Assembly (NCBI GenBank): GCA_944321705.1 | Contig: CALUMG010000005.1 | Location: 1 to 64,000, forward strand | Length of the DNA stretch: 64,000 nucleotides | Direction: 5' to 3' | Source of the DNA: an uncultured Muribaculaceae bacterium | GTDB taxonomy: Bacteria > Bacteroidota > Bacteroidia > Bacteroidales > Muribaculaceae | Shown here: positions 51,911-57,997 of the stretch, piece by piece | How the letters are laid out: each line of letters opens with the position of its first letter | Position numbering within the stretch: the stretch's first letter is position 1 | Made by a program: the position numbers and the translations under genes | Notes under the pieces: generated by a model | The model's database searches: none | The model's input: only the letters and a program-made list of their open reading frames with translations | What the model was told of the DNA's origin: nothing

Positions 51911-51991
51911 CTATACATAATTTAACGAAAATGAACATGCGATTTATGGATTTCTATATTAAGTTTGCAGCACAATTATCATAAAACAGAT

Positions 51992-53131
51992 ATGAAAAGA
52001 CATTTTTTAGCAGCCATTGCATCGATCGTGATGATTCCGATTTGTGGCCGTGCACAGGATTTTGAGAGTAACGGATTGTATTACTCGGTGATAAGTGCCG
52101 ACGAGGTGGAGATTACAAGTGAACCCGACAATGCCCATGTGTTGTACGCAGGTGTGGTGCATATACCGGAGACAGTGACTCATGACGGGGTGGAATATCG
52201 TGTGGTGAAAATTGGGGATGAGGCTTTTTATAATTCCAATGTCACCGACGTGCATATTCCTAACAGCATAAAGGAGATAGGCACAGGGGCGTTTGAGTAT
52301 GCCGCCAGTCTTCAGAATATCACGTTGCCTCTCGGCCTTACCAAGATTTCTGCTGCCGCTTTTGCCGGGACTTCTATTAAAGGAATTGCCATTCCCGAGG
52401 GTGTTACTGTGATAGGAGAAGGGGCATTCCAGTCGTGTGGGCATCTTGAATCGGTGTTTATTCCATCAACATTGCAGAAGATAGAGGCTTATGGATTCAA
52501 CAATTGCCATATGCTTCGTGAAATATATTGTCTTGCCGCTACTCCGCCGGAAGCTACCGGTTGGGCAATTTTCATAGGATTGAGCGGCATTGACATTCTT
52601 GTCCCTGAAGAGTCGATGGCAACATATGGAGAAACTGCTCCATGGAATGATGCCGCCACGTTCAATATCTATCCTCCCGAAAGTTTTGAAATGTCGATGT
52701 CGGCCTCGACTGATCGTGGAGAATGGGTTGAAATCCCTCTTGGTGCCAATTTTGCGTATAAGATATATAATAGCGACGATGAATTGCTTGCAGTGTCGGC
52801 TGCCGAGTCTTATTGGATTGAACGACAAGACAGTGAAACGACTTATACGGTAGTCCCTACAAATTATTTCTATGACTCGGCGGCCGAGACCTATGTTGTG
52901 GGCAGCGCATCGGTCAAAGGCATGCGGACTGATGAGAGTTTGGAAGTTAAAGTCTTGGACGGCGATATAATCCTTGTCGGAGATTACGCAGGCAGACAGG
53001 TACGCATATATGATACCGCAGGTCGTCTTGTGGCAACCCAATCGGATGGCAATGGAGTGATATCGGGATTGATACCCGGGAATGTATATATCGTGTGCTG
53101 CGGAGATATTGTGAAGAAAGTTGTTTTATAA
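51992..53131 (+). CDS. Secreted BspA-type leucine-rich-repeat protein
   Basis: About 379 residues from ATG 51992, which gives a signal peptide (HFLAAIASIVMIPICGRAQ). Residues ~45-215 hold four to five LRR_5 (BspA) repeats such as VTDVHIPNSIKEIGTGAFEY and IKGIAIPEGVTVIGEGAFQS. An Ig-like part follows. The C terminus (GRQVRIYDTAGRLVATQ, GNVYIVCCGDIVKKVVL) resembles a type IX secretion sorting domain. Such proteins are surface or secreted adhesin-like proteins; no ligand is known. The tadA gene starts 10 bases after its stop. Confidence 0.85.
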   Translation: MKRHFLAAIASIVMIPICGRAQDFESNGLYYSVISADEVEITSEPDNAHVLYAGVVHIPETVTHDGVEYRVVKIGDEAFYNSNVTDVHIPNSIKEIGTGAFEYAASLQNITLPLGLTKISAAAFAGTSIKGIAIPEGVTVIGEGAFQSCGHLESVFIPSTLQKIEAYGFNNCHMLREIYCLAATPPEATGWAIFIGLSGIDILVPEESMATYGETAPWNDAATFNIYPPESFEMSMSASTDRGEWVEIPLGANFAYKIYNSDDELLAVSAAESYWIERQDSETTYTVVPTNYFYDSAAETYVVGSASVKGMRTDESLEVKVLDGDIILVGDYAGRQVRIYDTAGRLVATQSDGNGVISGLIPGNVYIVCCGDIVKKVVL

Positions 53132-53672: not shown

Positions 53673-55265
53673 TTATTCTATGCTCAAGCGGTCTATTACA
53701 TCCTTGGCTGCAAGAAGTTCTTCGGACGATTTCACACCCGTGATTTTCAGCTCAAAATCAATTTCATCGCCTTCTACCGATGCTTTTACATGCAGGATGC
53801 CTTCCTTGTCGATTTTGAAAGCTACTTGTACAGGAGTACCCTTAGGCCAGTCTTTTGTGAGACGAAGCACCGACACCTCTTCGGTCGCGAGGGTGCAGAA
53901 TTTTTCATCTACAGTTTCATCCTTTTCCTCGTCGGTGTAGTCACTTTCATAAATCGGCAGGGTGATTCCGCGTTGATTCTCCTTTGAAGTTTCAAAAGTT
54001 TTTACTCGTTCTACCGGCAGACTTGTGTTTGCAAATATTATATTGCCCACTTTGTTGTCGATGAGCCCCAACCCGTAGGTCTTACTTGTTACATCTACAA
54101 TTTGAGTCTTCGGTCCGTGGACTATGTCTATAGGTTTCTCCCCTTCGTCATTCTTCCAGTCTTCGTAAGCCTTTCGGTAGGCCTCGTTCATGGCATAGAT
54201 TGCAGCACCCTTTGCCACGCATTCATCGGGGTCGGAAAGGCGAGTCGGCAATCCGAATTCTTGAGATATGCGTTCTTTTACTTGCGGCATCTTGCTGCTA
54301 CCGCCCACGAGGATAATTTCATCAATGTTTTCGTATCCTTTGTTTCGGGCAATTTCGATTACTTTGTTTGTTGCATCGATTGTTTCTTGCAACTTGTCGG
54401 CTGTGAGGTTGTTGAAGAATTCACGTGTAATCTCGAATGTTGCCGATTGGCCTTGCCATTGTATGTTGGCTTTGGTTTTCTCGCGTGCGGTCAGGGCGTA
54501 TTTGCGAGCTTCGGCTTCAAGCAGCAAGGTGTATTTGAGCAAATTGTCGTCATCAAGGCTGTAGGATGTGCCGTTTTGCTCGTTGAACACGTTGAGCATG
54601 TGCTCGGCAAGCAAAGTGTCCCAGTCTACACCGCCAAGATGGTGGTCGCCACCGGTTGCCACAACTTTTATTGCACCTCCGTTTACGACGATCATCGTCA
54701 CATCGAATGTTCCGCCTCCAAGGTCATACACGAGGATTGTCTTGCGCTCGTTTAGCTTCACGCCATAGGCTATTGCAGCAGCCGTGGGTTCGTTTATTAT
54801 TGCAAGCACGTTAAGGCCTGCGATTATTCCGGCCTGCTTGGTCTGCAATTTTTCTTTGTTCCCGAAGTATGCAGGGCAAGTGATTACCACATCTTTTATC
54901 GGGGTGGGGTTGTCGCCAAGGTCGTTTGCGTCCTTTACAATCTTTTTCAAGATCATTGCAGATATTTCAGACGGATCGAAATGGTATGGAGTTGTATTGC
55001 TTGATTTGTCGAAAGCTTCATCCACACCCATTTGGCGCTTGATGAACGACACTGTTTTTTCCGGCTCGGAAGTGAGCATGGCTTTGGCTTCACGTCCTAC
55101 CACGATATCGTCTTCGTTGTTGAAGTAAACTACCGACGGAGTGGTTGATTCTCCTTCGAAATTACGCAATACTATTGGTTGGTCGTATTTGTCTACTTGT
55201 GCCACGCAGCTAAATGTGGTGCCGAGGTCTATGCCATAAACGGCATGAGTCTTGTCTGTTGCCAT
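53673..55265 (-). CDS. Lidless Hsp70-family chaperone
   Basis: 530 residues against about 640 for DnaK. The ATPase domain (~1-385) is complete: GIDLGTTFSCVA, VYDLGGGTFDVTMI and IILVGGSSKMPQVKERI. The beta substrate-binding domain (~390-510) contains KTFETSKENQRGITLPIYE and FKIDKEGILHVKASV. The chain ends ~20 residues later, so the helical lid and the EEVD-like tail are missing, as in HscC-like forms. The gene is 43 bases downstream of a GrpE-like gene on the same strand. No J-domain gene is nearby. It is distinct from housekeeping DnaK. Confidence 0.88.
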   Translation of the reverse strand: MATDKTHAVYGIDLGTTFSCVAQVDKYDQPIVLRNFEGESTTPSVVYFNNEDDIVVGREAKAMLTSEPEKTVSFIKRQMGVDEAFDKSSNTTPYHFDPSEISAMILKKIVKDANDLGDNPTPIKDVVITCPAYFGNKEKLQTKQAGIIAGLNVLAIINEPTAAAIAYGVKLNERKTILVYDLGGGTFDVTMIVVNGGAIKVVATGGDHHLGGVDWDTLLAEHMLNVFNEQNGTSYSLDDDNLLKYTLLLEAEARKYALTAREKTKANIQWQGQSATFEITREFFNNLTADKLQETIDATNKVIEIARNKGYENIDEIILVGGSSKMPQVKERISQEFGLPTRLSDPDECVAKGAAIYAMNEAYRKAYEDWKNDEGEKPIDIVHGPKTQIVDVTSKTYGLGLIDNKVGNIIFANTSLPVERVKTFETSKENQRGITLPIYESDYTDEEKDETVDEKFCTLATEEVSVLRLTKDWPKGTPVQVAFKIDKEGILHVKASVEGDEIDFELKITGVKSSEELLAAKDVIDRLSIE

Positions 55266-55308
55266 TGTGAGATTATTGTATTATTTATTGATTATTTATT
55301 CGGAAAGT

Positions 55309-56313
55309 TTAGTTAATCGGAGTGTATTTGTACTGGCGGATGAGAGCTTTCTCGATTGTGCGACCTGTCGTCATGTTGACAAATCCGCCATGTATGCACG
55401 ATGCCACTTTCTTGTCGAGCGATTTGTCGTCGGTAGGCACGATCTCAAGTGAAGCGAATTGCTTGGGATTAAATTCATCGCCCACTCCCGGCTCAAAGTA
55501 GGTCAAATCGAATGATTCATCGAGGATGTCTCTTATCGAGCTGATGTAAACTTCTACTTGCTTCAGCAGTTTGTCATAAGCCTTTGGATCGTCCGAGATT
55601 CCTATCTTTGAATAATGGGCAAAAGTGTCGCAGATGCGATTGTGGCATTTGATGATGGTTTTGATTGCCGGAGTCTTCAACTCGGCGTAGAAATCGTTGT
55701 TTTTCTTCATCAAATCGTCGTGCAAGTCTTTTATCACTTTGTCTTTGTATGCGTGTTCGCCTATTTCGGCCGACAGGTGCTTGATTGACGCTTGAATGTC
55801 GTTCAATTGCTTGGTGTAGTCGATGCTTTGTGCCTGTTCCTGTTCTTTTTTGTCATTCGATTCCGACTGAGTCGGAACTTTTTCGGGAATGTTGAACGGA
55901 GGAGGTGTTGGCATTTCTTTGTTGTTTTTTTCTTGTTCCTCAAGTTTCTTTGCCACTTCGTCACGCTCATTGCGTATTGCAGTGAGAGATTCTTTCAAAC
56001 TGTCAAGCTCTTTTTGAAGCGTTTCGATAGTTTGCTGAGACGATTCTATTTCCTTTTTTAAAGTATCGATTTCAATGCCTTGAGCAGCAATTTTTTCTTT
56101 GCCTTGCGCCAATTCATTCGACATGTTGTCGATGGATGTTGTCTGCTGGTCAATGATTTTCTCGAGTTCTTTGTTCTTTTCTTCCGAGTCGTTATTAGTT
56201 TTTGTTAGCAACTTTATAAGGTTTTCTTTTTCCTTGAGCTCGTTGCTGAGATGTTCAACTTCTTCTCTCATGGATTCGTACTTCTCGTTTAAAGGTTTCT
56301 TGAAGATACTCAT
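55309..56313 (-). CDS. Coiled-coil protein with GrpE-like C-terminal domain
   Basis: 334 residues. Residues ~8-135 are a long coiled coil full of Glu and Lys heptads (EEVEHLSNELKEKENLIKLL onwards). A Pro/Gln-rich linker (PTPPPFNIPEKVPTQ) follows. The last ~150 residues resemble GrpE: a helical part, then YFEPGVGDEFNPKQFASLEI and CIHGGFVNMTTGRTIEKALI, matching the FNPxxH...GY...GR pattern of the GrpE beta-wing. It leads the operon with the lidless Hsp70 and is probably its nucleotide exchange factor. The coiled coil may add oligomerisation or targeting. Confidence 0.7.
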   Translation of the reverse strand: MSIFKKPLNEKYESMREEVEHLSNELKEKENLIKLLTKTNNDSEEKNKELEKIIDQQTTSIDNMSNELAQGKEKIAAQGIEIDTLKKEIESSQQTIETLQKELDSLKESLTAIRNERDEVAKKLEEQEKNNKEMPTPPPFNIPEKVPTQSESNDKKEQEQAQSIDYTKQLNDIQASIKHLSAEIGEHAYKDKVIKDLHDDLMKKNNDFYAELKTPAIKTIIKCHNRICDTFAHYSKIGISDDPKAYDKLLKQVEVYISSIRDILDESFDLTYFEPGVGDEFNPKQFASLEIVPTDDKSLDKKVASCIHGGFVNMTTGRTIEKALIRQYKYTPIN

Positions 56314-56691
56314 AAGGTATGGGTTTTGTTATGGTGCTTGATGAAATGTTGCCGGTTGTTTCGTAACAACATATTGCAAATATAGGAAATTAAATCAAAT
56401 ACATGCCATGTGCCGGTATGTATTTGACTTAATCAGATGAAAATCATTGTTTGCAGTGATAAATTCACATTAGTCGCGATGCGGAATGACGGCTCTTGTG
56501 ATATTTGACAGAAGTCGGGTTCTGGTTTTTAACAGTGATTGATTTTTAGATATTGTTCCATTTTTCTCCGGTCGGGTAAAAGGGTTGTGCGCTAAAAAAT
56601 GAAGGAAAATCGCAATTTGTGCATTTTTTTATGTGAAAATAGTTGCTAATTCAAAAATAATGCGTACCTTTGCAACCGAAATCAACGAAAT
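56314..56691. other. Divergent intergenic region GrpE-like / tRNA-Lys
   Basis: 378 bases without a gene. Minus strand: -7 box TATATTTG at 56384-56377, about 65 bases before the GrpE-like ATG. Plus strand: the tRNA promoter at 56665-56672. Confidence 0.55.
56665..56672 (+). promoter_or_regulatory. tRNA-Lys promoter -7 box
   Basis: TACCTTTG fits TAnnTTTG and is 20 bases before the tRNA 5' end. A TTGC at 56643-56646 is near the -33 position. Confidence 0.6.
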
Positions 56692-57335: not shown

Positions 57336-57722
57336 ATGAATGACAAGGTAACATATTGGATTGAAATGTCGGATTATGATTTTGACACGGCAAAGGCCAT
57401 GCTTGAAACCAAGCGTTACCTTTATGTCGCTTTCATGTGCCACCAAACAATAGAGAAGATTCTGAAAGCATATTGGAGCAAAGTGTTGGAAGAACCACCT
57501 TTGAAAGTTCACAGCTTATCAAGACTTGCCGAGAAAAGCGGTTTGGATAAGGATATGTCAGAGGAACAAATGGACTTCATAGACGAGCTTGAACCATTGA
57601 ACATAGAAGCACGTTACCCTTCATATAAGGAGCGGTTGATGAAAAGTCTGACCCCTGACCGCTGCAAAGAATTGATTGAACAAACTGATAAATTAAGAAT
57701 ATGGATAAAGAGCAAGCTATAA
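57336..57722 (+). CDS. HEPN-domain protein (toxin-type partner of MNT)
   Basis: 128 residues. WIEMSDYDFDTAKAMLETKRYLYVAFMCHQTIEKILKAYW is the usual start of PF05168-type HEPN proteins, and NIEARYPSYKERL is their second conserved block. HEPN proteins of this size pair with minimal nucleotidyltransferases as type VII toxin-antitoxin systems. The RNase RX4-6H motif is not evident in the sequence. It overlaps the MNT gene by 22 bases. Confidence 0.85.
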   Translation: MNDKVTYWIEMSDYDFDTAKAMLETKRYLYVAFMCHQTIEKILKAYWSKVLEEPPLKVHSLSRLAEKSGLDKDMSEEQMDFIDELEPLNIEARYPSYKERLMKSLTPDRCKELIEQTDKLRIWIKSKL

Positions 57723-57997
57723 AATTGGCGCAACGCTATAAGGCAGCGGTAGCAGAACGGTTGCCCTTAAAGGCTCTTTACCTTTATGGCTCATACAGCA
57801 AAGGCAACCATACGGAGGACAGCGACATCGATATTGCTGTTGTCGTGGAACACATGAGCGATGATTATTTTGAAGATACGCCTTTATTGTGGAAACTGAA
57901 ACGCAAGATAAGCAATCTTATAGAGCCTGTTCTACTTACAGAGGATACAAACAATCCTCTCTATGTCGACATTCTTAAAACAGGAATATTGATATAA
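57701..57997 (+). CDS. Minimal nucleotidyltransferase (MNT antitoxin-type)
   Basis: 98 residues. LYGSYSKGNHTEDSDIDIAVV is the polymerase-beta active-site motif GSxxxG...DxD with both aspartates. In characterised pairs MNT adds AMP to the HEPN toxin and silences it. It is co-translated with the HEPN gene by overlap. Confidence 0.88.
   Translation: MDKEQAIKLAQRYKAAVAERLPLKALYLYGSYSKGNHTEDSDIDIAVVVEHMSDDYFEDTPLLWKLKRKISNLIEPVLLTEDTNNPLYVDILKTGILI

Follow-up and report, generated by a model that had tools for sequence, protein, structure and literature searches.

A lidless Hsp70 encoded with its own GrpE-like partner in gut Bacteroidales, and apparent erosion of its J-domain docking site

J-proteins are regarded as obligatory partners of Hsp70 chaperones (PMC7289447), and Asp35 in the HPD motif of the J-domain is contacted by an arginine of DnaK, R167 (PMC8215388, PMC7289447). 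Among bacterial Hsp70s, HscA and HscC are known specialised members; they have kept their J-proteins and have apparently dropped GrpE (PMC8215388). The lid of HscC is present but slightly shortened, and HscC works with a J-protein and apparently without GrpE (PMC8215388). A further setting is the HSP70+GrpE theme of the GAP1-N2 GTPase-centric systems (Kaur et al. 2020, PMC7159879), which is membrane-proximal, includes SH3 domains and was found mainly in actinobacteria and firmicutes (PMC7159879).

The locus analysed here comes from an uncultured Muribaculaceae bacterium (GCA_944321705.1, labelled genome G000). The window, meaning the whole stretch of DNA that was analysed, covers positions 1 to 64,000 of contig CALUMG010000005.1. 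On its minus strand lie a gene for a lidless Hsp70 of 530 aa (P0001, 53673..55265) and one for a GrpE-like partner of 334 aa (P0002, 55309..56313), separated by 43 bp with no gene between them; the coordinates and strands given for both in the first-pass annotation were correct. With the DnaK-GrpE-DnaJ system the pair shares the Hsp70 catalytic core and the GrpE fold of the partner, but the Hsp70 has no lid, appears to have no J site and falls far below the DnaK equivalog cut-off. Like HscA and HscC, it is a specialised second Hsp70 from which the GrpE-signature loop is deleted, whereas the absence of a lid, the possession of its own GrpE and the loss of the J-docking arginine make it the reverse of their arrangement. 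HscC is itself short, at 556 aa, and the window protein does not belong with it: it lies on a separate branch of the tree, has no lid and has no linked J-protein. The canonical DnaK of the genome is encoded on contig C7, and the canonical GrpE and DnaJ are encoded together on C2.

The Hsp70 and its GrpE-like partner

The Pfam HSP70 profile (PF00012) matched residues 9-513 of the window Hsp70 with 351.6 bits and was covered from position 1 to 501 of 599, so that the part of the protein that is absent is the lid only. According to Pfam and the family alignment, the nucleotide-binding domain spans about residues 9-387 (54105..55241, minus strand). The equivalents of E. coli D8, G10, T11, K70, E171, T199 and D201 are intact in this alignment; the catalytic T199 is conserved, and a histidine sits at the GDT/GDH position. 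The β substrate-binding domain, placed by Pfam, the family alignment and residue comparison at about residues 393-511 (53733..54089, minus strand), is followed in the alignment by a 19-residue C-terminal tail, the start of helix A, and the stop codon (53673..53732, minus strand). The first reading of a protein complete in its ATPase and β substrate domains, and ending some 20 residues later with the lid lost, is thus borne out. In the family alignment of 33 Hsp70s, window protein included, the window protein and all 32 relatives end at the same point shortly after the β domain, and helices B-E of the lid are absent from every one. The truncation is therefore no frameshift artefact, and the loss of the lid is an old, fixed feature. 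With the DnaK equivalog model TIGR02350 the window protein scored 330.7 bits against a cut-off of 822.55, which makes it an Hsp70 but not a DnaK.

The full-length partner matched Pfam GrpE with 33.4 bits (cut-off 25.8), and residues 151-334, from which the coiled coil was excluded, still matched PF01025 with 30.6 bits. The GrpE-like C-terminal domain, residues 155-334 (55312..55851, minus strand), was delimited by Pfam, AlphaFold2, Foldseek and VIA and consists of a long helix, a second helix and a beta wing. AlphaFold2 modelled these residues, with 26 relatives, at a pLDDT of 87.2 and a pTM of 0.60. When the model was compared with the PDB by Foldseek, ranks 1-11 were all GrpE (E 2.3e-6 to 3.2e-4) and the next match had an E of 1.2; VIA gave a Z of 13.6 to E. 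coli GrpE (1dkg_A) and of 13.2 to human GrpEL1 (9blt_C; rmsd 2.9 Å over 158 residues). Judged by its profile match and predicted fold, the C-terminus of the partner is a GrpE homologue, as had been proposed from its FNP...GF...GR pattern. It shares with PF01025 proteins the fold, this pattern and the long dimer-type helix, but is only about 13-20% identical to the solved GrpEs, carries a coiled coil that is optional in the family and is encoded with an Hsp70 that is not DnaK.

This coiled coil had been presented as a defining scaffold of the machine. About 130 coiled-coil-like residues and a Pro/Gln linker are indeed present within residues 1-154 (55852..56313, minus strand), and in the Pfam scan they gave weak matches to many coiled-coil families, none above the curated cut-off. 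The stretch that precedes the GrpE domain varies from 15 to 167 aa in the relatives, so the coiled coil is a lineage-specific extension and not the core of the machine. The features of the Hsp70 that bear on GrpE are mixed: the lower cleft salt-bridge pair K55/E267 is kept, the upper pair E264/R362 is lost, and the GrpE-signature loop of DnaK is deleted as it is in HscA and HscC. Since the latter two are thought to be GrpE-independent (PMC8215388), neither exchange activity of the partner nor the fast exchange first proposed is assured. The partner might then merely scaffold, the GrpE fold being reused as an oligomeric coiled-coil adaptor that lacks exchange activity, and the long coiled coil of the window protein, the modest GrpE score and the lost loop would all fit such a role. 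We nevertheless regard it as very improbable, given that relatives dispense with the coiled coil while the GrpE domain and its position next to the Hsp70 are constant.

This constancy emerged from a scan of the GTDB collection of genomes, in which an alignment covering the substrate-binding part of the Hsp70 served as query and 28 loci were returned; the whole Hsp70 used as query in the same kind of scan returned no relative. The loci are nearly all from Bacteroidales (Prevotella, Bacteroides fragilis, Alistipes, Butyricimonas, Tannerellaceae and Marinilabiliaceae), with one from a Victivallales MAG. Upstream sequence was available for 27 loci, and in all 27 the Hsp70 gene is immediately preceded, on the same strand, by the GrpE-like gene; the linkage of the two genes is thereby shown to be conserved in Bacteroidales and in the Victivallales MAG. 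Matches below about 40 bits in the order search were mostly frames of the size of canonical GrpE and were excluded from the members. Distribution is sporadic, the window-type Hsp70 being present in 6 of 198 genomes of the family Muribaculaceae.

Several features of the surroundings can be recorded here. Close to the pair in the window lie a gene for a BspA-type leucine-rich repeat protein (51965-53131, Pfam LRR_5) and, adjoining the chaperone pair, a gene for a HEPN domain and after it a small nucleotidyltransferase gene that overlaps it (57336-57997); the two resemble a HEPN/MNT toxin-antitoxin pair. A near-perfect inverted repeat with 19-nt arms and a 7-nt spacer (56389..56433), present in a single copy in the genome, lies 75 bp upstream of the start of the partner gene. 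It is possibly an operator; a family-wide operator was ruled out, as the repeat is unique in the window genome and was not found upstream of the relatives. In the Victivallales locus (L063:4107-7721), a Ser/Thr protein kinase-like gene of 1204 aa, read by eye, is located directly upstream of the GrpE-like gene.

Residues of the J-domain docking site

The residues with which E. coli DnaK engages J-domains were compared in the same 33 proteins. The position of R167 is occupied by A, G or S in 30 of them and by R in one; in the window protein it is Ala155 (codon 54801..54803, minus strand), identified by family alignment and residue comparison. D148 is replaced by N or T in 29 members and kept in none, the acid of E206 is lost in all 33, and Q378 has become Y or F in 32 and is kept in one. 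Altogether, the docking set formed by R167, D148, E206 and Q378 is replaced in 31-33 of the 33 members. At further positions, N147 is G in 31 of 33, D393 is N in 30 of 33 with D retained in the window Hsp70, and N170 and T173 are retained in the family. R167, D148, Q378 and D393 are all retained in HscA and HscC of E. coli, two Hsp70s that work with J-proteins. These comparisons suggest that the J-domain docking site has been eroded family-wide and appears to be lost.

The first-pass annotation had reported no J-protein, and this proved correct on a wider scale: the flanking sequence retrieved for the relatives' loci showed no recognisable J-domain gene, and a search of the window genome found the canonical DnaJ alone, adjoining the canonical GrpE. 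The erosion of the J site is our strongest evidence that the absence of a J-protein is meaningful. It also lends support to the earlier idea of a specialised machine; the Hsp70 may be one that runs by different rules than the J-switched Hsp70s.

A more ordinary reading would be that of a second general proteostasis Hsp70 which shares the DnaJ of the cell, the loss of the lid tuning client binding. A DnaJ is available in the genome, and D393 in the window protein together with N170 and T173 in the family could allow some J contact. In one Prevotellaceae relative (L056:3090-6233), the GrpE-Hsp70 pair is directly followed by genes read by eye as Hsp20-like and ClpB-like, neighbours that better fit general protein quality control. 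This reading seems unlikely to us, as the whole family has lost both the acidic J-contact residues and the HPD-docking arginine that E. coli HscA and HscC keep, as few genomes of the host family carry the gene, and as a dedicated GrpE is always adjacent.

A third component predicted at the membrane

The first description was that of a two-gene unit. The Hsp70/GrpE pair stands, but a third component escaped it: members of one gene family immediately follow the Hsp70 gene, on the same strand, at 25 of the 28 loci. Full copies of this third protein range from 173 to 990 aa and have one or two helical N-domains of about 110 residues; one copy (L037) has lost the N-domain from the same reading frame. 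The proteins also contain Pro-rich linkers and β domains, and most copies are predicted to have membrane segments. SH3_3 and MORN were recognised by Pfam, and one copy (L043:10632-13604) has SH3_3, an FKBP prolyl isomerase domain and a thioredoxin-like domain behind the membrane segments. The N-domain is the constant part, detectable in 323 of 351 protein pairs (E<=1e-3) versus 168 of 351 for the remainder. AlphaFold2 predicts it as five helices (pLDDT 89.9, pTM 0.79), and no PDB structure matched this model significantly (best Foldseek E 1.7, best VIA Z 7.5), which for a helical bundle is no proof of a new fold. 

In the window genome the third gene is unlinked to the pair. It is located on contig C8 (89144–91396) and encodes 750 aa, made up of a single N-domain, three β domains that resemble one another and a membrane segment preceded by a run of lysines, the features beyond the N-domain being read by eye. 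Across the 198 Muribaculaceae-family genomes, those with the third gene and those with a window-type Hsp70 are the same six, the window genome included; the third gene occurs in none of the other 192, among them three with a GTPase-system Hsp70. The six come from two genera, five of them from one, so that the co-occurrence amounts to about two independent events; within it, the unlinked copy of the window genome is informative. A recognisable third gene is absent from the genomes behind L056, L061 and L063. At L063 the downstream gene has the same layout, with a helical start, a Pro-rich linker and a membrane segment, and no significant sequence match. A recognisable third gene is lacking in two or three of the 28 genomes in all.

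For the general proteostasis reading discussed above, the membrane protein would be one of several clients. Another conceivable role, which we put forward tentatively and rate as rather unlikely, is that it replaces the J-protein. Its constant five-helix domain would then recruit and trigger a J-blind Hsp70 that has no lid and relies on its own GrpE for resetting, and the whole would be a new class of Hsp70 machine.

Kinship with the GAP1-N2 systems and a proposed mechanism

In genomes from the genus of the window bacterium, and in one further genome of its family, there are clusters with a shorter GrpE-like gene, a lidless Hsp70 of 538–540 aa, an Hsp70 fused to vWA, a J-like protein that lacks HPD and carries a zinc ribbon and FNIII-like domains, and DO-GTPase2. 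The J-like region gave a weak Pfam DnaJ match in one copy. DO-GTPase2 is present in all four genomes with such a cluster, and a GAP1-N2 gene is present in the one GTPase-type locus tested. One example from the same genus (L023:1-9202) reads GrpE, lidless Hsp70, Hsp70-vWA, J-like/zinc ribbon/FNIII protein, DO-GTPase2 and GAP1-N2. The Hsp70-vWA proteins of these sister clusters retain R167, D148, Q378 and D393. These Bacteroidales cases look like an extension of the HSP70 theme of Kaur et al. In the tree, the window-type Hsp70s are monophyletic (support 0.975), with the exception of one divergent member; their nearest relatives are the Hsp70s of the GTPase systems, and DnaK, HscA and HscC are on separate branches. 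This kinship with the GAP1-N2 Hsp70/GrpE branch was missed in the first interpretation, which was right about the pair and the absent J-protein and wrong in taking the coiled coil for the defining part.

The two arrangements have in common the GrpE-Hsp70 gene pair, the Hsp70 lineage and the loss of the J site. They differ in that the window genome has no DO-GTPase2 match, no relative of the J-like/FNIII protein and no Hsp70-vWA gene that our searches could find, and has the membrane protein instead. Membership in a GAP1-N2 system was rejected for the window genome, as neither DO-GTPase2 nor the J-like/FNIII protein was found in it, and the window pair consequently represents a different arrangement of the same Hsp70 lineage, one that is free of the GTPase. 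The N-domain of the third protein was also considered as a relative of the J-like protein and was rejected, the two being not alignable (hhalign probability 0.1%). At one locus (L113:4041-7156), a divergent pair (G369) is followed by a protein with a J-like start that lacks HPD and with repeated beta domains, as read by eye; it is possibly an intermediate between the three-gene and the GTPase-type arrangements.

One could imagine that the locus is a stripped-down conflict system of the defence type, derived from the GAP1-N2 HSP70 systems, in which the membrane protein is an effector whose C-terminal domains vary and which the pair unlocks or sets a threshold for. The nearest Hsp70 relatives do lie in GTPase-type clusters such as those of PMC7159879, the third protein varies outside its constant N-terminus, and the distribution is sporadic. 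However, the GTPase and the J-like/FNIII protein were not found in the window genome, no toxin, nuclease or pore domain was recognised in the third proteins scanned, and PADLOC returned no match of substance, only coiled-coil-type matches for the partner. Moreover, no plasmid matched the window Hsp70 at E<=1e-100, and the phage matches listed were all below 36% identity. The defence reading is without direct support, and we consider it improbable.

We lean, by a modest degree, towards the proposal that the pair is the soluble part, and the core, of an Hsp70 module with three components and a link to the membrane, a module that is J-independent, reset by GrpE and provided with a membrane adaptor. 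It shares its Hsp70 lineage with the HSP70+GrpE branch of the GAP1-N2 systems but would work without the GTPase, and its Hsp70 would hydrolyse ATP independently of a J-protein. The five-helix N-domain of the membrane protein would recruit or trigger the Hsp70 and bring it to its client, the lidless pocket would hold a client segment only loosely, and the GrpE dimer would swap ADP for ATP and so reset the Hsp70. The client may be the membrane protein itself or something that it recruits. On the far side of the membrane segment, domains of the SH3-like, FKBP or thioredoxin type would sense the envelope or act on it, and the Hsp70-GrpE cycle would control the assembly or the conformation of the membrane protein.

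We found no description of the three-gene arrangement in the literature searched. As far as its sequences indicate, this Hsp70 lineage seems to have reversed the usual rule, keeping GrpE and losing the J site. Many gut Bacteroidales encode a shortened Hsp70 and a GrpE partner dedicated to it, in nearly all cases together with a third protein predicted at the membrane; strains of Bacteroides fragilis are among the gut bacteria in which such Hsp70s occur. If confirmed, the module would show how an Hsp70 cycle proceeds when both lid and J-domain are missing, and a candidate for its partner protein is already named.
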